DNA of 26,520 bases, taken from IMG/VR virus record IMGVR_UViG_3300042560_001542, positions 1 through 26,520 of that record; one strand, written 5' to 3'. Origin of the DNA: a virus. Positions 2,413-24,143 of the stretch are shown piece by piece (the stretch's first letter is position 1; each line of letters begins with the position of its first letter). Made by a program: the position numbers and the translations under genes. The notes under the pieces were generated by a model. That model had not been told where the DNA came from and made no database searches. It was given only the letters and a program-made list of their open reading frames with translations.

Positions 2413-2818
2413 CCTCTCGCAAACAGCCGCAAACGTCGCTGTCGGTGCTTTGGACGCACGAATTGCAATTTTCACCGCTGGCGAATCGATCACTCAAGGG
2501 ATGCCGGTTTATCTTAGTTCGACCGATGGCAAATACTACCAGTGCGATTCGAACGACGGCGCAGCAAAGGCCGAAGCAAAGGGAATCGCTTTAACCGCTG
2601 CCGCAACTAGCGGATTTTTCGTTCTAGGCAGCAAAGGTAAAATCAATCTCGGTGCAACGCTAACAGTCGGCGAAGTCTATGTAGTCAGCCGCACGAAAGG
2701 CGCAATCTGTCCAATCGGCGATCTAACAAGTGCGGACTATGTAACGATCCTTGGAATCGCAACGACAACGGCTCTGCTTGAACTCAACGTCCAAATCAGC
2801 GGAGTTCTGAAGCCGTAA
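2405..2818 (+). CDS. Putative capsid decoration/cement-like protein upstream of the capsid gene
   Basis: The product has 137 residues. The GTG start at 2405 is chosen because AAAGGAGG lies about ten bases upstream; it overlaps the end of the portal gene. The sequence is small, Gly/Ala/Thr-rich and beta-predicted, with an internal GESITQGMPVYLSS segment and LGATLTVGEVYVVSRTKG. This matches the general style of DUF2190-like or gpD-position capsid accessory proteins. Lambda gpD lies in the same position, before the capsid gene. Its TAA overlaps the ATG of the protease/capsid fusion (TAATG). The role is inferred from size, composition and position. Confidence 0.55.
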   Translation: MANLSQTAANVAVGALDARIAIFTAGESITQGMPVYLSSTDGKYYQCDSNDGAAKAEAKGIALTAAATSGFFVLGSKGKINLGATLTVGEVYVVSRTKGAICPIGDLTSADYVTILGIATTTALLELNVQISGVLKP

Positions 2819-5352
2819 TGTTGCACGCACAGAAAAAGCTACAAGCCGCTTTAGATGACATCGACTTTTCGCCTCCACAAGGCGTTCGCGAAGAAGCCAA
2901 GCGTGGTTTGGATTGGCGACGCGAATACAACCGAGGCGGAACAGAAGTCGGAGTTGCAAGAGCACGCGATTTGAGCAACGGCAAAAACATCTCGCCGGAA
3001 ACCGCGAAACGGATGAAAGCCTACTTCGATCGCCATGAAGTTGACAAGCAAGGCGAAGGATTCTCGCCGGGCGAGAAAGGCTTTCCAAGTGCGGGGAGAA
3101 TCGCATGGGCTTTATGGGGCGGAGATCCAGGTCAAGCATGGGCCAACAAACTAGTGCGACAGATTGAGGCGCAAATGACCGCAAGCAAAGATAACACTGT
3201 TCGCTTCAATGCAACTGGATCGGTTGAGCTTCAAGCCGAGGCCGGAGCAACGCCGCGTTTTGTGCTTCACGCTTATAGCGGCGGCGTGATGAATCCGAAA
3301 CTGGCGATCCGCTGGAGTGGGCCGGTTGTCGTCGATCTTGGCGGAATGCAGATCCGATCCGAAGCCTTGCCAGTTCATCGCGATCACGACACGTCGCGTC
3401 CCGTTGGACACACGACCGAAATCAATAACGACGGCACGCAACTTGAAGCAACTGGTGTTTTCTCAATTCAGAACGCCGATTCACAAGAGTTGATTCAATC
3501 AGGAAAAGCTGGATTCCCGTGGAAAGCTTCAGTCGGTCTTTCGATCAATGACTATAAGACAACTAACGAGGGTCAAACGGTGGCAGTGAACGGTCGTCAA
3601 TTTGACGGGCCGATCCTTGTCGTAACCGCTTCGACGCTTGAAGAAATTTCGTTTGTTTCCGTCGCGGGAGATCCCGAAACCGCAACGGAAGTTTTAGCCA
3701 AAAAGTCGGGGTATGTGGAGGCACAACAGATGCCAACTTTTGAAGAATGGATGAGCTCGTTGGGCCTCGATCCAGCGAGTGTATCCGAAGACCTAAAGAT
3801 GATTTTGCAGAAGCAGTACGCCGAGGTTATGGAGGAAATGGTTCCTCCGGTGGCGGATGCTGAAATGTCCGAAGAAGTGAAAGCGATGGAAGATAAACCT
3901 GTTGCAACCGCTTCCTCCGAAGCAATCGACCTTCGCGCTCAGCTCGCAAGCGAAACGCAGAAAGCCGCCGAAATCCGTTCTTTGTGCGCGAAGTTCGGAA
4001 ACCCCTCGATTTCGATCAAAGGCAAGACCGTAGATGTCGCAGCGCACGCGATTCTAAACGGCTGGACTCAGGAGAAGACCGAGTTGACTATTCGCAAGCA
4101 AAAAGACCTTGAAGCTTCCCGCGAAGCTCGTCCAAGCGGGCCAGCGATCCACAGCAAGAGCAGCAGCCAGACTACGATGGCCAGCCTCCAAGCCGCAATG
4201 CTGATTCGTGGCGGTGCAGATGTTGAATCGAACAAGTGGCAGCAACGCCGCTTCCGCGACGCTTGCAAGGTTGATTGGCTTCGCGCCTCAATCAACAGCG
4301 ATCAGAAGCAAGCAATCTTGGAAGATGCTCACCGCTTCCGCAATTCGTCGCTGCTGGAATTGACCGCTCACGCTTTGCGTGTTTCCGGTCAGGAAGTTCC
4401 GGTTGATCGAACCGACTTGCTTCAAGCAGCTTTCTCGACTTCTTCGGTCGCAAACCTTTACGGTGCAACCATCGGCGCACGAGTGCTAGAAGGCTACAAC
4501 GAGATCCGCGACTTCACCGACGGGTGGACGACCGAATCGGAGAATCCCGACATGGAAAACCACAACCGAATCCGCATGACCGCAAGCAACAATCTTGCCT
4601 ACTTGCCGATCGGTGGCGAAGCCGCTCACGCTTACCGAAGCCTAGCAACGGAAGCAACCCGCGTCGAACGATTCGCACGTCAGATGGAAATCGATGAAGC
4701 CGACTTGCTTGGCGACAATTTCCAAAAGCTTGCTGACACTCCGAGAGATTTCGGTTTAGCCGCTGGCCGCATCCGACCTGATTTGGCAGCAAACATCTTG
4801 CTCGCCAATGCAAACCTTTCCGCAACCGGACGTGCTCTGTTTAACACGACCGACGGAAACCGATTCGGGTCCTCTGCACTAGCACGAGCAACCTTGTCCG
4901 CCGCGATCGCAGCAATGGCGAAGTTCAAAGATGGTGATGCCTCGATTGGCCTCGCCGCTTCGCATATTGTTGTTCCGCCGGACTTGGCTGATACTGCGAT
5001 TCAGCTAACGCAGTCACAAAACAACGTGACGACTTCGGCGAACGATGGTCAGATCAACCCGCTATCGCGCTACGGAATTGTGACGGTCAGCGAACCACGA
5101 CTTGCAAACGGTGTTGTCGATCCAGTTGCAGGAACGAGCCGCAGCGGTTCAACCACGACTTGGTACTTGGTCAGCCGCGAAGCACGAACGATCGAATTCG
5201 TTTACCTTCAAGGCGCAGGCCGCGCACCAGTGGTTCGCACCTCGCAGCTGGTCAACGGTCGCTTCGGTATCAACATCGACGTACGCCACTACGTTGGAGC
5301 CAAAGCATTGGATTGGCGAGGATTGGTTTACAACCAGTCGGCTAGCTTGTAA
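2818..5352 (+). CDS. Prohead protease / scaffold / major capsid protein fusion
   Basis: The product has 844 residues with at least four parts. Residues 1-119 form a separate domain with motifs GVREEAKRGLDWRR, GGTEVGVARARDLSNG, and PSAGRIAWALWGGDPG, seen in phage structural polyproteins. Residues ~145-295 form a prohead protease-like domain with LPVHRDHD (His187/His190), WKASVGLSI (Ser238) and LEEISFVSVAGDP. Residues ~305-450 are charged and helical, as expected for a scaffold (delta) region. Residues ~450-844 form an HK97-fold-type capsid domain. NCBI-style 'prohead protease/major capsid protein fusion' proteins have this plan. In-frame ATGs at 3175 and 3730 carry good Shine-Dalgarno sequences, so separate shorter products are likely. 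The mature capsid needs proteolytic release of the C-terminal part. Confidence 0.88.
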   Translation: MLHAQKKLQAALDDIDFSPPQGVREEAKRGLDWRREYNRGGTEVGVARARDLSNGKNISPETAKRMKAYFDRHEVDKQGEGFSPGEKGFPSAGRIAWALWGGDPGQAWANKLVRQIEAQMTASKDNTVRFNATGSVELQAEAGATPRFVLHAYSGGVMNPKLAIRWSGPVVVDLGGMQIRSEALPVHRDHDTSRPVGHTTEINNDGTQLEATGVFSIQNADSQELIQSGKAGFPWKASVGLSINDYKTTNEGQTVAVNGRQFDGPILVVTASTLEEISFVSVAGDPETATEVLAKKSGYVEAQQMPTFEEWMSSLGLDPASVSEDLKMILQKQYAEVMEEMVPPVADAEMSEEVKAMEDKPVATASSEAIDLRAQLASETQKAAEIRSLCAKFGNPSISIKGKTVDVAAHAILNGWTQEKTELTIRKQKDLEASREARPSGPAIHSKSSSQTTMASLQAAMLIRGGADVESNKWQQRRFRDACKVDWLRASINSDQKQAILEDAHRFRNSSLLELTAHALRVSGQEVPVDRTDLLQAAFSTSSVANLYGATIGARVLEGYNEIRDFTDGWTTESENPDMENHNRIRMTASNNLAYLPIGGEAAHAYRSLATEATRVERFARQMEIDEADLLGDNFQKLADTPRDFGLAAGRIRPDLAANILLANANLSATGRALFNTTDGNRFGSSALARATLSAAIAAMAKFKDGDASIGLAASHIVVPPDLADTAIQLTQSQNNVTTSANDGQINPLSRYGIVTVSEPRLANGVVDPVAGTSRSGSTTTWYLVSREARTIEFVYLQGAGRAPVVRTSQLVNGRFGINIDVRHYVGAKALDWRGLVYNQSASL
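3166..3177 (+). promoter_or_regulatory. Second internal Shine-Dalgarno and in-frame ATG (possible protease start)
   Basis: GAGG at 3166-3169 lies five bases before the in-frame ATG 3175 (Met120, MTASKDN). It sits just after the N-terminal RIAWALWGGDPG domain and before the protease domain. It could let the protease be made without that domain. The motif is short, so chance occurrence is possible. Confidence 0.35.
3717..3732 (+). promoter_or_regulatory. Internal Shine-Dalgarno and in-frame ATG inside the protease/capsid fusion
   Basis: GGAGG at 3717-3721 lies eight bases before ATG 3730. That ATG is in frame with the fusion gene and encodes Met305 of MPTFEEWMSS. It falls at the protease/scaffold boundary, so initiation here would make a 540-residue scaffold-capsid protein without protease. 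The arrangement resembles lambda C/Nu3, where the scaffold starts in frame inside the protease gene. Confidence 0.55.
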
Positions 5353-11039: not shown

Positions 11040-12136
11040 TGCCGAAGAAAAATAACCCAGGATGCAATTGCTGCGAAGGCGAAGATTGCGCGACGCGATG
11101 CTTGTATAAATGCACAGGCACACCGCCGTGTCCATTTCCTTGTGCAATTCAGATTGATACACCAACTCCGGATGTTGTAAGCAAATCAACCGGCGCAACT
11201 TGTCCAGAAGCGGATTGCGATGTTTCAGCGGAATGCTTTCAGTGTCGCATATTGTTTGATGGACTTTTCTTCCTAAATGCTGGTGTTGGTGCGTCGCAGA
11301 GAGAAGGATGGGACGGAAGCGGATTCACTGGGCCTAATTGCTCCGATCAGACGCAAGAATTCACGCCGAATTCGAATGATAACATGACTCGGTTTGCATG
11401 TTGGACATACAGTAACTATCTATGTCCCGAAGATACCTATCTTTGGGATTTTTCGCAGTGCGTTCCGGAATACAGCATTGTTTCGCCAAAAGTTACTGTC
11501 AATGTAACCTACTCTGCTGGATGCTCGACAACTGAAGTTCTGATTGAATACAAGGTTCGAAAATCATGTGATGAGGTTGCCATACCACCGAATCCTCCGA
11601 CAAGCCCAGAAACAACATACACGCATACTTTCCGAAGAACCAATCAGTGCAATTGCGATGAGATTCTCGGCGCATTAACTTACATTTCAACGTCTTCGGT
11701 CAACAATTCGCGAGGCGTCACAGTTCCCGATGTTTGCAATATGGATGCAGCGACGGTATCACTTGTTGGTAACGGTTCGGCTTGTGGTTGCGAGTGCTTA
11801 ACTTGTCTTGGTGTTGATAATGATTTGCTTTTGACTGTTACAGGTGGCGAATATCCAGGGACTTACTTGCTTACCAAAGACAGTGAAGTTTTCTTTTCTC
11901 CAGATGGAGCACCAGGTTACTCTCAGTGCATCTTTGGTTCTGCTGACTTTGGAAGTCCTGCAAAAAATTGGTTTGTCGTGATAGATTGTAGGGGTTGCGA
12001 GGTGCTCGATGTCCGATTGTTTTTGAGAGAATCACCCAGCGACCCAATCAAATATGCTGAATCATTGGCTGTAGCTTGTAGCGATCCGCTTACGTTAACG
12101 ACCTTAGTTGGCGATGGAACCTATGAAGTGTCCTAA
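11039..12136 (+). CDS. Cysteine-rich tail-region protein (29 Cys in 365 residues)
   Basis: The product has 365 residues, of which about 29 are cysteines (8%). The N-terminus is dense in Cys (CNCCEGEDC, then CLYKC, PPCPFPC). Later clusters are CFQC, CNC and CGCECLTC, and RGC lies near the end. No zinc-finger spacing repeats uniformly, and several clusters may form disulfides or metal sites. The rest is beta-rich. It starts with ATG overlapping the prior TAA (TAATG). A surface or tail-tip role with an oxidised, disulfide-stabilised fold is plausible; no enzymatic motif is seen. Confidence 0.6.
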   Translation: MPKKNNPGCNCCEGEDCATRCLYKCTGTPPCPFPCAIQIDTPTPDVVSKSTGATCPEADCDVSAECFQCRILFDGLFFLNAGVGASQREGWDGSGFTGPNCSDQTQEFTPNSNDNMTRFACWTYSNYLCPEDTYLWDFSQCVPEYSIVSPKVTVNVTYSAGCSTTEVLIEYKVRKSCDEVAIPPNPPTSPETTYTHTFRRTNQCNCDEILGALTYISTSSVNNSRGVTVPDVCNMDAATVSLVGNGSACGCECLTCLGVDNDLLLTVTGGEYPGTYLLTKDSEVFFSPDGAPGYSQCIFGSADFGSPAKNWFVVIDCRGCEVLDVRLFLRESPSDPIKYAESLAVACSDPLTLTTLVGDGTYEVS

Positions 12137-13340
12137 GTGTAAACACGAATTCATTAAGCCGCCTCGCATCTATCCGGTGTACTGCGCATGCGGTCGCAGA
12201 ATTGAAAACGAACTGGAAATGATTTCCGGCGACACTCAACCTTCCGACCGCTGCACGCATCAAGGCGATCTCTACGGAAAGATCGATTGTGGTTGCCAAG
12301 GTGATGTCTCGGTTTTTAAGTGCGCTAAACACGGTTTAGCAGCAAAGCAAAAACGAAAACCGGGTAATCATCAGATCATTACGCTAGATGGATCGAGAGA
12401 ACCGTGGAGTCCGGTTTACTGCGTGGGTTGTGATGACTTCCAGCTTAAAGGCAAAAGCGGAGAGACGATGATTCTTTCGACCGGAGATCCAACACGCTAC
12501 TGGCTCATGGAAGACTTGCTTGGTTTAGCAAAAGGACTCGCTTCCGAAATTGCGAAACAACACGAAATCTCAGCCGTTGCCGGTGTGCCTCGCTCCGGAA
12601 TGCTGGCCGCTTCGGCAATGGCAATCCATCTATCCGTGCCGCTTCTTGAAGCTTCGACACAAGGACTCCGCAGCCTAACGCACGGTAGACGCATCGAGAA
12701 CGTACCTCAAAAGGGCAGAACGATCGTTGTTGAAGATTCACTTAACACAGGCCGCAGGTTTAGCGAACTAAAGAGATCGCTAGGCGAGGAGCATATTTAC
12801 GCTTCAATCTTTTCGACGCCGAGATCCAAGCACCTAGCCGATTACGTTGGCTGCGAACTCCCGCTTCCGCACTGGTTTGACTGGTGGCTCTACGGTTCAA
12901 GAGCAATGCAGCAAATGCGAATCGGCATCGATTTCGACGGTATTCTTTGCGGTGACTGTCCGCGCGACACCGACGACGACGGTGAACGCTATTCCGCATG
13001 GATGCAAAACGTTCCCGCAATCCGTCACGTTTTTCCGCACGGCGTTCCGCTGATTATCACCGGACGACTTGAGAAGTACCGATCGCTAACGGAAAGTTGG
13101 CTTTCGCGGAATCGGCAGATTGCCAGCAAAATCATCTTTGGACACTGGCCGGACATTGCAGCTCGCCGAGGACAATCGATCGCAGCGTTCAAAGCACAAC
13201 AGATCGTGAATGAGCAGTGTTCGCACTTCATCGAAAGCGATCCGAGGCAAGCGAGAGAGATCGTCGAACGAACCGGGATTCCGGTGATTTGTCCGGAGCT
13301 TCGGCAGTGCTTGATGCCGAAAGCCTTGAGAAAAAGCTAG
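12123..13340 (+). CDS. Zinc-ribbon / phosphoribosyltransferase / HAD-like fusion protein
   Basis: The product has 405 residues from ATG 12123; TTG 12108 and ATG 12114 are in-frame alternatives, and all overlap the Cys-rich gene. Residues 3-23 form a zinc ribbon (CPKC...CAC). A second Cys/His cluster (Cys44, His46, Cys56, Cys58, Cys67, His70) is followed by Cys100/Cys103. Residues ~125-260 resemble a phosphoribosyltransferase with GVPRSGM and the PRPP-loop-like IVVEDSLNTGRR (201-212). Residues ~265-405 look like a HAD-type phosphohydrolase: GIDFDGIL (Asp270/Asp272), LIITGR (Thr313) and FIESDPRQ. Such a fusion could build or trim a nucleotide- or ribosyl-linked group. Its substrate and role in the tail operon are unknown. 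Confidence 0.7.
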   Translation: MKCPKCKHEFIKPPRIYPVYCACGRRIENELEMISGDTQPSDRCTHQGDLYGKIDCGCQGDVSVFKCAKHGLAAKQKRKPGNHQIITLDGSREPWSPVYCVGCDDFQLKGKSGETMILSTGDPTRYWLMEDLLGLAKGLASEIAKQHEISAVAGVPRSGMLAASAMAIHLSVPLLEASTQGLRSLTHGRRIENVPQKGRTIVVEDSLNTGRRFSELKRSLGEEHIYASIFSTPRSKHLADYVGCELPLPHWFDWWLYGSRAMQQMRIGIDFDGILCGDCPRDTDDDGERYSAWMQNVPAIRHVFPHGVPLIITGRLEKYRSLTESWLSRNRQIASKIIFGHWPDIAARRGQSIAAFKAQQIVNEQCSHFIESDPRQAREIVERTGIPVICPELRQCLMPKALRKS

Positions 13341-13385: not shown

Positions 13386-13595
13386 ATGAACGAGAAGTTA
13401 AAGAAAATTCTAACCGGGGCAGCGATCGCGATCCTTGGCGCAGTGGTGACCTATGCCGCAAACGTCGTCGTGCCGTTCTTAGAAAAAGACGGTGGAATGG
13501 CCGGGCCGATCATAGCCGCAGTCGTCGCGATCGCAATCAACGCCGCTCGAAAGTTCTTAGAGCAGCAGCCAAAGGACGGTGAAACCAATGGCTAG
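13386..13595 (+). CDS. Small two-helix membrane protein, holin-like (putative)
   Basis: The product has 69 residues. Two hydrophobic segments are visible: ILTGAAIAILGAVVTYAANV (about 8-27) and MAGPIIAAVVAIAINAA (about 38-54), with a charged break FLEKDGG between and a charged C-terminus. Short size, two transmembrane helices and the start of a small-gene cassette between tail genes and a peptidase fit a class II holin. GAAAGGAAAGACG precedes ATG 13386, which is preferred over an in-frame TTG further upstream. The stop overlaps the next start region. Confidence 0.55.
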   Translation: MNEKLKKILTGAAIAILGAVVTYAANVVVPFLEKDGGMAGPIIAAVVAIAINAARKFLEQQPKDGETNG

Positions 13596-13872
13596 AAAAC
13601 GACTTGGACTCTTTTATCGTCGTCGTGCTTATCAGGCAGCCAAGGAAGCCTACCTTGCTGGCGGTGACGAAACTGCGATGACAGCTAACGCAACTGCAGA
13701 AGTCGAAGGCTTGGGCCTGCCGCCGTGGCTAGTTGCAATCCTAGTTCAAATTGCGGTCGAACTGCTTCGCAAGTGGCTTGAGAAAAAGCTGTCGAGTCCT
13801 CCTGAATTCGATTTGTCTGACGACCGGGAATTCGACATCGACCACGACCTAGCGGAGGATGACTCGCTGTGA
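13588..13872 (+). CDS. Small basic-to-acidic membrane-associated protein
   Basis: The product has 94 residues. The N-terminus is basic (MARKRLGLFYRRRAYQ), a single hydrophobic stretch lies at LPPWLVAILVQIAVELL (about 46-62), and the C-terminus is very acidic (DLSDDREFDIDHDLAEDD). It overlaps the holin-like gene by eight bases and the following gene by four (GTGA). An in-frame GTG at 13579 is a possible alternative start. The position in a membrane-protein cassette suggests a role in lysis or membrane disruption, but no family is recognised. Confidence 0.5.
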   Translation: MARKRLGLFYRRRAYQAAKEAYLAGGDETAMTANATAEVEGLGLPPWLVAILVQIAVELLRKWLEKKLSSPPEFDLSDDREFDIDHDLAEDDSL

Positions 13873-14084
13873 GTGTTCAAGTCGTGCTTGGTGTTATCCT
13901 GATTGTCGTCGCAGTTCTTTGGTGCTTGTGGATTGCTTTGAGCAGCCGCAAACCGAAGACCGCGAACATCAGTGATATGCACGGCACGATTGTTTCGATG
14001 ATCGAAGCGGCACCCAACGCACGGGTGGCCGAACACCTTAAAGCGGCTGGGAAGGCTCTCTACGATGCGGAGACGAAGCTGTGA
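13869..14084 (+). CDS. Small membrane protein with N-terminal transmembrane helix
   Basis: The product has 71 residues, starts at GTG and overlaps the previous stop (GTGA). The N-terminus is VQVVLGVILIVVAVLWCLWIAL, a strong transmembrane helix, followed by a basic SSRKPK turn and an amphipathic helical C-terminus (MIEAAPNARVAEHLKAAGKALYDAE). This suits a membrane-anchored accessory protein in a lysis cassette, such as an antiholin or inner-membrane component. No family is recognised. Confidence 0.5.
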   Translation: MSVQVVLGVILIVVAVLWCLWIALSSRKPKTANISDMHGTIVSMIEAAPNARVAEHLKAAGKALYDAETKL

Positions 14085-14473
14085 ACTGGAAGTCGGTTAT
14101 ATTCCCGGTTCTACTTGCCATCGCTGGAGCGGGCCTCCTATTGAGCGGCAGTGGCATTGAGTTGCCGTCCTGGAGTTTCGTTGCGAAAGATCCATCTGCG
14201 TGGTTTGTCATTCTTGAGGAATCAGATTCGCGCGATTTAGACTTAGCAGTTCTCTTGCAAAACAAACCTTGGCGAGATTCACTCATTGAACGTCAAATCA
14301 ACTTCCGAGTTTACGATGACGATCAACCGGAGGCTGCAAGTTATGCAAAAGCAATCGACGAACGACCGGCCTATTTGTTTGTCTCGTTGACTGGCAAGGT
14401 TCTCAAAAAAGGCATTGCACCAAAGACCGCAAAGCAAGCGGACGCACTCATAGCTGAGGTAATCGGCAAATGA
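14081..14473 (+). CDS. Membrane-anchored thioredoxin-fold-like protein lacking CxxC
   Basis: The product has 130 residues, starts at GTG and overlaps the previous stop. Residues ~7-24 (IFPVLLAIAGAGLLLSGSGI) are a signal anchor. The rest reads like a thioredoxin-fold domain: AWFVILEESDSRD (strand plus turn), then INFRVYDDDQPEAASYAKAIDERPAYLFVSLTGKVLKKG, where 'ERPAYLFVSLTGKVL' resembles the cis-Pro strand-turn. The usual active-site CxxC is absent. The thioredoxin-fold reading is based only on the strand order and is tentative. Its stop overlaps the peptidase start. Confidence 0.5.
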   Translation: MNWKSVIFPVLLAIAGAGLLLSGSGIELPSWSFVAKDPSAWFVILEESDSRDLDLAVLLQNKPWRDSLIERQINFRVYDDDQPEAASYAKAIDERPAYLFVSLTGKVLKKGIAPKTAKQADALIAEVIGK

Positions 14474-15279
14474 GCATCGAAGAATTCGACGGCAACTTTT
14501 GCGGTCTTATCGTTCCTGACTCCAGGCCAGAAGTTTACGCACCTTATCGGGCAACGCAGAACGTCCTGAGCAAAGACCAGATTAAACAAGTCGTCGAGAA
14601 CCCAGATCGTTCGCCAGCACTTGCACGCTATGACCTCAATTGGACACGTTCGCAAGGCCGTCGCGGCTCTTGTGCGGGCTATGCCGCTTCAATGGCATTA
14701 GCACTATGCCGGTTCAATTCTGGCTTGCCATATGTTCCTCTGTCCGGTGAGTTCGTCTACGCACACTGCAACGGCGGACGCGATGCCGGAGCGCAACTGC
14801 TTTGCACGATGCAAAAAATTGAGCAAGTCGGAACCTGCCGACAAGACTTGGTTAAGCACGAATCTTATCTAAAGCGTGACATCAGCAAACAAGCCACGGA
14901 AGACGCAAGCAACTACAAAGCCTTCGAATGCTACCGAGTCGATGATGAAAGTGAACTTGCTTCCGGCTTGGCTCTTGGATTTGTTGGCGTCGTTGCGGTT
15001 GAAGCTTCACGCAATTGGCAGCGAGTCGATTCGAACGGAGTTTCTGGTTATAGCCAGGGTCGCGGCAACCATGCTGTTTGTTGCTGTGATGTTCGAATCC
15101 GACAAGGAAAGTTTGAATTCCAGATATGGAACTCATGGGGCAAGTCTTTCGGGGTCAATGGACTTGCTTGGAACACATGGGAAAATCATTTATCACAACC
15201 GAACCGCTACCATGCTTTTTATTTGATTCGTGCCGCTAGAGACATCAGCGGTCAAACTGCTCCGGAGATTAAGAAATGA
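14470..15279 (+). CDS. Papain-like (C1A) cysteine peptidase
   Basis: The product has 269 residues. It carries the catalytic Cys68 in RSQGRRGSCAGYAAS with Gln62 as the likely oxyanion residue, His201 in GNHAVCC and Asn221 in IWNSWG. This triad order and spacing is that of papain-family peptidases. No secretion signal or propeptide is obvious, so export would depend on the neighbouring membrane proteins. It lies amid small membrane genes, with ATGA overlaps on both sides, in the place of a phage endolysin. Phages rarely carry C1A enzymes. Hydrolysis of host surface protein during lysis, or structural processing, are possible roles. Confidence 0.8.
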   Translation: MSIEEFDGNFCGLIVPDSRPEVYAPYRATQNVLSKDQIKQVVENPDRSPALARYDLNWTRSQGRRGSCAGYAASMALALCRFNSGLPYVPLSGEFVYAHCNGGRDAGAQLLCTMQKIEQVGTCRQDLVKHESYLKRDISKQATEDASNYKAFECYRVDDESELASGLALGFVGVVAVEASRNWQRVDSNGVSGYSQGRGNHAVCCCDVRIRQGKFEFQIWNSWGKSFGVNGLAWNTWENHLSQPNRYHAFYLIRAARDISGQTAPEIKK

Positions 15280-15506
15280 AATTTCGAGTTCTGTCCATAT
15301 TGTGCCTGTTCATTGTTGGATCAACCGCAATTGCTTCGGACTGCAAGAACGGTCAGTGCCCGCTGGTACAAGTTCCAAAGGCGGTTGTTTCGCAGAGTGC
15401 TGCTGTCGCCTCCGAAGTTGCCTCGGCTCCCGTCAAAGCCGTTAAGCAGATGCGAGTCAAGCAGCCGGTGCGGGGACTTCTAAAGCGACTATTTCGAAAG
15501 GGTTAG
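15276..15506 (+). CDS. Small secreted protein with CKNGQC motif
   Basis: The product has 76 residues. A signal peptide is clear: MKFRVLSILCLFIVGSTAIA, likely cut before SDC. The mature part begins SDCKNGQCPLV, a motif common in small planctomycete secreted proteins, then an Ala/Val-rich middle and a basic C-terminus (RGLLKRLFRKG). It overlaps the peptidase gene (ATGA). A periplasmic or outer-surface lysis partner is conceivable, such as an outer spanin analogue, but there is no lipobox and the role is unproven. Confidence 0.55.
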   Translation: MKFRVLSILCLFIVGSTAIASDCKNGQCPLVQVPKAVVSQSAAVASEVASAPVKAVKQMRVKQPVRGLLKRLFRKG

Positions 15507-15509
15507 TCG

Positions 15510-15755
15510 ATGGAACTGATCGTTTCCCTTTGCGGATCGCTCGGCGTAACTGGAACGCTCGTTTGGTATTTGTACTGGACGACCACCAAAACGATTCCAG
15601 ACTTGACAGAAAAGCACGCGAATAGCATGGACAAGATTACCGACAAGTTTAGCGATACGCTTCGCGAAGAACGAGAGTTTCGCAGAAATGAATTTGCCGA
15701 CCTCAAAACATTTATTAAAGCCGAAGGGTGCAAGCACCAGGAGAACAAACAGTGA
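15510..15755 (+). CDS. Membrane-anchored coiled-coil protein, spanin/holin-like (putative)
   Basis: The product has 81 residues. An N-terminal transmembrane helix (LIVSLCGSLGVTGTLVWYLYW, about 3-23) is followed by a charged helix rich in coiled-coil heptads (TEKHANSMDKITDKFSDTLREEREFRRNEFADLKTFI). This topology, a single anchor followed by a long coiled coil, fits an inner-membrane spanin or a BhlA-like membrane protein. It closes the lysis-type cassette. The stop overlaps the next GTG. Identification is by topology only. Confidence 0.5.
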   Translation: MELIVSLCGSLGVTGTLVWYLYWTTTKTIPDLTEKHANSMDKITDKFSDTLREEREFRRNEFADLKTFIKAEGCKHQENKQ

Positions 15756-16051
15756 TTAACCTTACTCAACTTACGCAAGAACAACTCTGGGGTTTGCAGT
15801 TCGTTGTACTGCAAGCCAACGCACCTATTCAGGCAGCAAACGAAGCCCTGCCAGAAGGTGAAGAACCTAAGCCACTATTCACCGATGCAAGCTACGCTGA
15901 AATGATCTTCAAGTCAGCTTGCGATTCGTACTACCAGCAACTTGTTGAACACAAAAAGAAGTCTGCTTTGCAAATGTTTGATTCTTTAACGCCGGAACAA
16001 CAAGCGGCACTTGTTCAGCAACTTCAGATTCCAGACGTTTTACCTCAATAG
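15752..16051 (+). CDS. Small hypothetical protein preceding the tail fibre gene
   Basis: The product has 99 residues from GTG 15752, which overlaps the previous stop (GTGA) and has AGGAG nine bases upstream. It is mostly helical: LTQEQLWGLQFVVLQANAPIQAANEALPEGEEP, then DASYAEMIFKSACDSYYQQLVEHKK and LTPEQQAALVQQLQIP. Proteins of this form often sit beside fibre genes in phages, possibly as chaperone or adaptor, but no function is established. Confidence 0.5.
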   Translation: MINLTQLTQEQLWGLQFVVLQANAPIQAANEALPEGEEPKPLFTDASYAEMIFKSACDSYYQQLVEHKKKSALQMFDSLTPEQQAALVQQLQIPDVLPQ

Positions 16052-23537: not shown

Positions 23538-24143
23538 ATGAAAGCATGGATTTTGATCGCGGTAAGTTTCGTTGTCGGATGCCTTGCACAAGCAGCACTT
23601 GCACAAGAAAAGGTGAAGTTGAGCTACAAATCGGATACGGTTCTGCCGATAACCTTCAAAGGCTGCGAAGGCGTGGAGTCGCAAGGAAGCTGCACGGTGA
23701 TTGAGCGTTCGCTGGTGCTAACAGCGGCGCACGTTGTTGGAGGCTCGCTAGCGGAAATCAAGTTTCGTGCGGAAGTCGTTCGCGGCAAAGTGATCGCTCT
23801 TGATCTGTTTCACGACCGATCCTTGGTGCGGCTCGAAAAGGAACTTGACGTTGTACCGAGAAAGTTTCGACCGACTGATTTGAGTGAAGGTGAGGCGATC
23901 TACGCAATCGGTTACGGTCGAGGATTTGGCTACACGCCGGGCCGAGCTGCTAGCGGCAAGCTACGAGGCCGAAGCGTACCGGGTGACTCCGGCGGATTGA
24001 TTGCGGATTCAAAAGGTGAGATTGTGGGGATTGTTCAGGGGTATGCTTCAGATGGAGAGTTATACGGACATGGGCGAAAATCGATTCTTGAATGGGTGCA
24101 GGAAAACAAAGGCAATGATCCAATCGACCTCGGAAACAAGTGA
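23538..24143 (+). CDS. Secreted trypsin-like serine protease
   Basis: The product has 201 residues. MKAWILIAVSFVVGCLAQAALA is a signal peptide (cleavage near ALA/QE). The catalytic triad is visible: His65 in LVLTAAHVVGG, Asp93 in FHDRSLVRLE, and Ser151 in VPGDSGGLI. It therefore resembles trypsin_2/HtrA-type proteases but lacks a PDZ domain. AAAGGATACAAGC lies before the ATG, in a gap of 111 bases from RecT. Secreted proteases are unusual among phage early genes; host surface modification or processing are possible. The 3' end overlaps the acetyltransferase gene. Confidence 0.8.
   Translation: MKAWILIAVSFVVGCLAQAALAQEKVKLSYKSDTVLPITFKGCEGVESQGSCTVIERSLVLTAAHVVGGSLAEIKFRAEVVRGKVIALDLFHDRSLVRLEKELDVVPRKFRPTDLSEGEAIYAIGYGRGFGYTPGRAASGKLRGRSVPGDSGGLIADSKGEIVGIVQGYASDGELYGHGRKSILEWVQENKGNDPIDLGNK

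Follow-up and report, generated by a model that had tools for sequence, protein, structure and literature searches.

A conserved phage gene cassette around a papain-family peptidase as a candidate host-lysis module

Double-stranded DNA phages are generally thought to require a peptidoglycan hydrolase for exit from the host. The window analysed here, a stretch of 26,520 nucleotides that forms a 26.5-kb piece of a tailed-phage genome, contains no such enzyme recognisable in Pfam or PHROG scans, in agreement with an earlier note made from the sequence alone. Gene order runs from portal, protease-capsid fusion and tail genes through a cassette of seven small genes (13386-15755) to fibre-like genes and DNA metabolism. 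In the fusion (2818-5349) the major capsid protein is joined to a head-maturation protease (PHROG 4523 and 133). Directly upstream of the cassette, 12108-13340 encodes a 410-aa protein that has a zinc ribbon and weakly matches phosphoribosyltransferases; in the phage G016 described below, a distantly related protein sits after the tail genes. A second protease of the window, a trypsin-like peptidase (PF13365, E 4.4e-12), is encoded at 23538-24140 amid recombination genes.

Table 1. Genes of the cassette, in window coordinates.
Gene	Position	Strand	Product and features
gene 1	13386..13595	+	69-aa, two-helix, holin-like, charged C-tail
gene 2	13588..13872	+	94-aa, one helix between basic N-terminus and acidic tail; start ATG 13588
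gene 3	13869..14084	+	71-aa membrane protein, one helix
gene 4	14081..14473	+	130-aa thioredoxin fold, membrane-anchored, without CxxC
gene 5	14470..15279	+	269-aa C1A papain-family peptidase; Gln62 Cys68 His201 Asn221; without signal peptide
gene 6	15276..15506	+	76-aa predicted secreted peptide, CxxGxC motif, basic C-terminus
gene 7	15510..15755	+	81-aa, charged coiled coil after a single N-terminal helix

The seven open reading frames were confirmed exactly where the earlier note had placed them (Table 1). Its description of small genes that overlap or abut holds, with successive overlaps of 8, 4, 4, 4 and 4 bases and a 3-base gap at the last junction. Compared with a relative of ∼91% identity (G001), dN/dS was below 1 for all seven genes and at most 0.11 for five of them (0.05, 0.11, 0.31, 0.05, 0.09, 0.53 and 0.01 for genes 1 to 7, the gene 5 value covering its first 210 codons). 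We therefore regard the frames as real genes and not as chance. The protein types assigned in the note were likewise recovered by membrane-segment predictions, by a thioredoxin-fold model of gene 4 and by C1A matches of gene 5. None of the fetched loci contained a relative of gene 8 (15752-16051), which lies outside the module.

By profile and fold match the gene 5 product is a C1A papain-family peptidase. The profile of its group gave 1.6e-12 against xylellain (3ois) and 8.7e-09 against cathepsin K, and 3ois was also the best match of the structure model by both Foldseek and VIA (Z 12.6, 194 residues, 3.6 A), the model itself being of modest quality (pLDDT 55). Against PF00112 gene 5 scored 19.1 bits, under the 20.7 cut-off; the peptidases of the more distant loci L041, L050 and L051 lie above it, and the profiles of two other peptidase groups likewise match C1A. 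None of the tested peptidases matched CHAP or NlpC/P60 in Pfam, which returned PF00112 and unrelated weak matches, and neither family occurred among the VIA-align and Foldseek matches listed, where C1A enzymes were present. No wall-binding domain was recognised in the three peptidase groups. Gln, Cys and His were retained in all 12 peptidases compared and Asn in 10; a change of the catalytic Asn to Gly (NSWG to GS[SW]G) was seen in the peptidases of L030, L035 and L032, with Gln, Cys and His retained where sequence is available.

Immediately upstream, the gene 4 product has one predicted N-terminal membrane segment and an AlphaFold2 (AF2) model of pLDDT 77, for which thioredoxins were the best Foldseek matches. 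No CxxC active site was present in gene 4 across four aligned cassettes. The model and the alignment support a membrane-anchored, redox-dead thioredoxin fold. The gene carries an internal Shine–Dalgarno-like GAGGT, and its overlap with gene 5 is the 4-base ATGA. In the distant group around L041, a CxxC protein lies immediately upstream of the peptidase: the product of L041:5766-6095 is membrane-anchored, contains a CAPC motif (Thioredoxin_2, E 0.011) and overlaps the peptidase start. Besides this protein, cassettes of that group hold a second thioredoxin-like gene without CxxC.

The first three genes encode small proteins with predicted membrane segments. Gene 1 has two (residues 14-32 and 36-54), and its holin matches are weak: PHROG holin family 608 was matched at E 0.0056 by one of eight gene 1 members, while the match to Pfam Holin_LLH (E 0.09) scored 13.6 bits where 24.9 are required. 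By hhalign, gene 1 and its counterpart in the distant cassettes are homologous with 98% probability. In one further locus (L040:4441-5180), a gene 1-like two-helix protein is directly preceded by a protein of 174 aa which resembles NlpC/YiiX by eye, with no Pfam or PDB support. Gene 2 has one predicted segment (42-60) and gave no match in the family search; its relatives by tblastn are in L030, L035 and L024, and it may possibly be a second holin or an anti-holin. Gene 3 has one N-terminal segment (5-23) and aligns with the protein in the same position of three other cassettes.

Downstream of the peptidase, gene 6 has one N-terminal hydrophobic, signal-like segment and is conserved across five cassettes. 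Inspection of the alignment revealed no lipobox in the gene 6 sequences, and gene 6 thus differs from the outer-membrane lipoprotein with lipobox that defines a two-component spanin. Gene 7, with one predicted N-terminal membrane segment, encodes nearly identical proteins in the window and G001 (dN 0.005), although dS is 0.78. In G002 and L032 its position is taken by a protein that is laid out similarly but is apparently unrelated.

The earlier note had suggested a search for syntenic cassettes, and these exist. Cassette order is kept in five other records with peptidases 51-95% identical, among them G002 (51%), L030 (58%) and L035 (53%); L032 holds a partial cassette from the peptidase onward (56%). 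Downstream of the module, L032 has fibre genes and then HNH, TerS, TerL and portal, a differing packaging arrangement which indicates that the module does not depend on a single virion type. A second group (L041-L044) was reached by the gene 1 search, and L045-L053 through the L041-L044 peptidase. These further phages carry divergent modules whose peptidases are 23-31% identical. What they share is a C1 peptidase, an upstream one-helix protein that overlaps it by ∼4 bases and is often thioredoxin-like (a fold judged by eye in the distant cassettes), and small membrane proteins. Near and distant peptidases are homologous by profile (hhalign 97%), whereas genes 2, 3 and 4 of the two sets show no significant profile similarity and correspond by place and layout. 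The start of the peptidase gene overlaps the stop of the upstream gene by ∼4 bases in 11 of 11 loci checked, and in L051 and L052 a secreted Cys-rich, Arg-tailed peptide follows the peptidase. Fibre genes adjoin the module in the window, L030, L032, L035, L047-L050 and G016. No DNA relatives were found among named phages, and the one protein match there was to the huge phage LR756511, in which a secreted protein, its C-terminal domain thioredoxin-like by eye, is followed by a C1 peptidase.

An endolysin encoded elsewhere in the genome would have undone the earlier proposal, and we looked for one in two genomes more complete than the window. G001 (IMGVR_UViG_3300044626_000467; 37,095 bases) has contig ends that correspond to window positions 15098 and 15115, within the peptidase gene. 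Because these ends are 16 bases apart, we take G001 to be an effectively complete, circularly permuted genome of ∼37.1 kb. It adds the region missing from the window, with a thermonuclease, ParB-methyltransferases, a primase-polymerase, an AAA helicase, RusA and the large terminase. No peptidoglycan hydrolase was found among 40 of its proteins searched against Pfam (E≤0.005); its other proteins were assigned by PHROGs or Pfam through their window homologues or are cassette members, and no hydrolase was recognised inside the cassette by Pfam or PHROG. The second genome, G016, is a near-complete 40.5-kb siphovirus-like phage unrelated to G001, with different head and tail genes, in which a divergent module sits between DNA-metabolism genes and fibres/HNH; again no peptidoglycan hydrolase was found among the 36 further proteins scanned. 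The 25 of 40 families listed for G002 included no endolysin, and Amidase_2 and Phage_lysozyme were absent from all 16 module-bearing records. Since many proteins of the phage's genome have no known function, an unrecognised endolysin is possible.

From the holin-like anatomy, the leaderless hydrolase, the late-gene position and the lack of any alternative found, we infer a role in lysis. The best reading, which we hold with about even confidence, is that the cassette is a host-lysis (envelope-exit) module in which a C1A peptidase replaces the peptidoglycan-cutting endolysin. A new kit for bursting the host is probable, because the gene order is kept in phages that differ greatly from one another, including two without a recognisable wall-cutting enzyme. 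In the mechanism we propose, gene 1 would act as the holin and gene 2 or 3 would supply a second holin or an anti-holin; these small membrane proteins would open the inner membrane late in infection. The leaderless peptidase would then enter the periplasm and cleave a peptide bond on which the cohesion of the envelope depends. Its one-helix, often thioredoxin-fold partner, co-translated through the conserved overlap, may anchor, chaperone or restrain it, while the products of gene 6 (secreted Cys/Arg peptide) and gene 7 (helix plus coil) may act on the outer layers in a spanin-like manner. This full scheme, with lysis by a protease and not by a peptidoglycan hydrolase, holin-like delivery and control by a co-translated, membrane-anchored thioredoxin-fold partner, is offered tentatively; we found it undescribed in the literature searched.

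Several observations favour a lysis module over other functions. The peptidase has no predicted hydrophobic signal sequence, as would be the case for a holin-dependent endolysin, and synteny persists despite divergent peptidases, together with the invariant Gln, Cys and His and the constant overlap. Two apparently unrelated protein types fill the gene 7 position. Lysis genes of lambdoid phages lie between replication or DNA-metabolism genes and packaging-side genes, the place that the module occupies in L032 and G016. Against these points stand the weak holin matches, the Asn to Gly exchanges, the lack of profile similarity of distant genes 2, 3 and 4, the many proteins of no known function among which an endolysin could hide, and the fact that C1A enzymes cleave proteins; we know of no C1A enzyme that serves as an endolysin. 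This last property would also suit an envelope-remodelling or exclusion module that cuts a host surface or receptor protein and blocks superinfection or defence, leaving lysis to a separate, unrecognised enzyme. A set of several one-helix proteins with a secreted peptide is as reminiscent of exclusion or moron cassettes as of lysis genes, and G001 still has proteins without assignment. However, such a module would need a further lysis system of unrecognised kind in at least two unrelated phages, and the conservation of the whole set, the late-gene neighbourhood and the low dN/dS exceed what is expected of morons, so that we consider exclusion unlikely.

The adjoining fibre genes, and the frequency of lytic enzymes in phage virions, could instead indicate a virion-associated protease for entry or for tail or fibre maturation. 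We think this improbable: the partner genes encode small membrane or secreted proteins, unlike virion genes, and the module is retained across phages whose head and tail genes differ. Equally improbable in our estimate is that lysis is conventional in substance, the papain-fold enzyme cutting the peptidoglycan peptide as CHAP or NlpC/P60 enzymes do, with novelty confined to the family. Papain-fold enzymes often act as endolysins (PMC10318531), the phage pseudomurein endoisopeptidases PeiW and PeiP (C71) lyse methanogens through isopeptide-bond cleavage (PMC4592898), and DAP-type peptidoglycan is present in planctomycetes (PMC4432640). Nevertheless, all three peptidase groups match C1A and not CHAP or NlpC, and they bear no recognised wall-binding domain.

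The host also bears on the lysis-module reading. The earlier note had argued that planctomycete walls hold little peptidoglycan and that a protease might therefore suffice. Scans of host genome contigs gave no provirus or relative in cultured or binned hosts and hence no sign of a planctomycete host, and planctomycetes possess a lysozyme-sensitive peptidoglycan sacculus (PMC4432640), which contradicts the premise and, for planctomycete-type hosts, counts against a module that dispenses with a peptidoglycan hydrolase. On both grounds that rationale is weak. A literature search for planctomycete phages or C1 endolysins found nothing on point.

Should the lysis-module reading be correct, a protease would be able to replace the peptidoglycan hydrolase in phage exit, and the module would inform on what holds the envelopes of these hosts together. 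It recurs in unrelated phages, with at least one effectively complete genome free of a recognisable hydrolase. Lysis genes in phages annotated without any could then be sought by a signature, a C1A peptidase gene that overlaps the gene of a one-helix protein, often with a thioredoxin fold.

Among known enzymes, bacterial C1A peptidases such as xylellain (3ois) are the closest by profile and fold and have the same Gln/Cys/His/Asn residues, but xylellain is a cellular enzyme outside phage cassettes and ∼24% identical to the gene 5 product. CHAP and NlpC/P60 endolysins share the papain-like superfamily fold and a phage lysis role, which for gene 5 would be by inference, whereas the peptidases tested here match neither family. 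PeiW and PeiP resemble gene 5 as phage papain-fold cysteine peptidases directed at a peptide-type bond, lysis by the present peptidase again being putative. They belong to C71 and not C1A and carry wall-binding repeats, which were not recognised here, and to our knowledge no seven-gene cassette of the present kind accompanies them. With regard to organization, the closest comparison is the lambdoid holin-endolysin-spanin cassette. In contrast to it, the present hydrolase is a C1A peptidase accompanied by a thioredoxin-fold membrane partner and a Cys/Arg peptide that is predicted to be secreted, and none of the proteins was recognised as a spanin lipoprotein. Because it lacks a recognised peptidoglycan hydrolase, we regard the cassette as one that would work like a lysis cassette and not as a standard member. 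It nevertheless shares with the lambdoid arrangement a small holin-like protein, a leaderless hydrolase, small membrane or secreted proteins, translational overlaps and, in two lineages, a position between replication and packaging genes.
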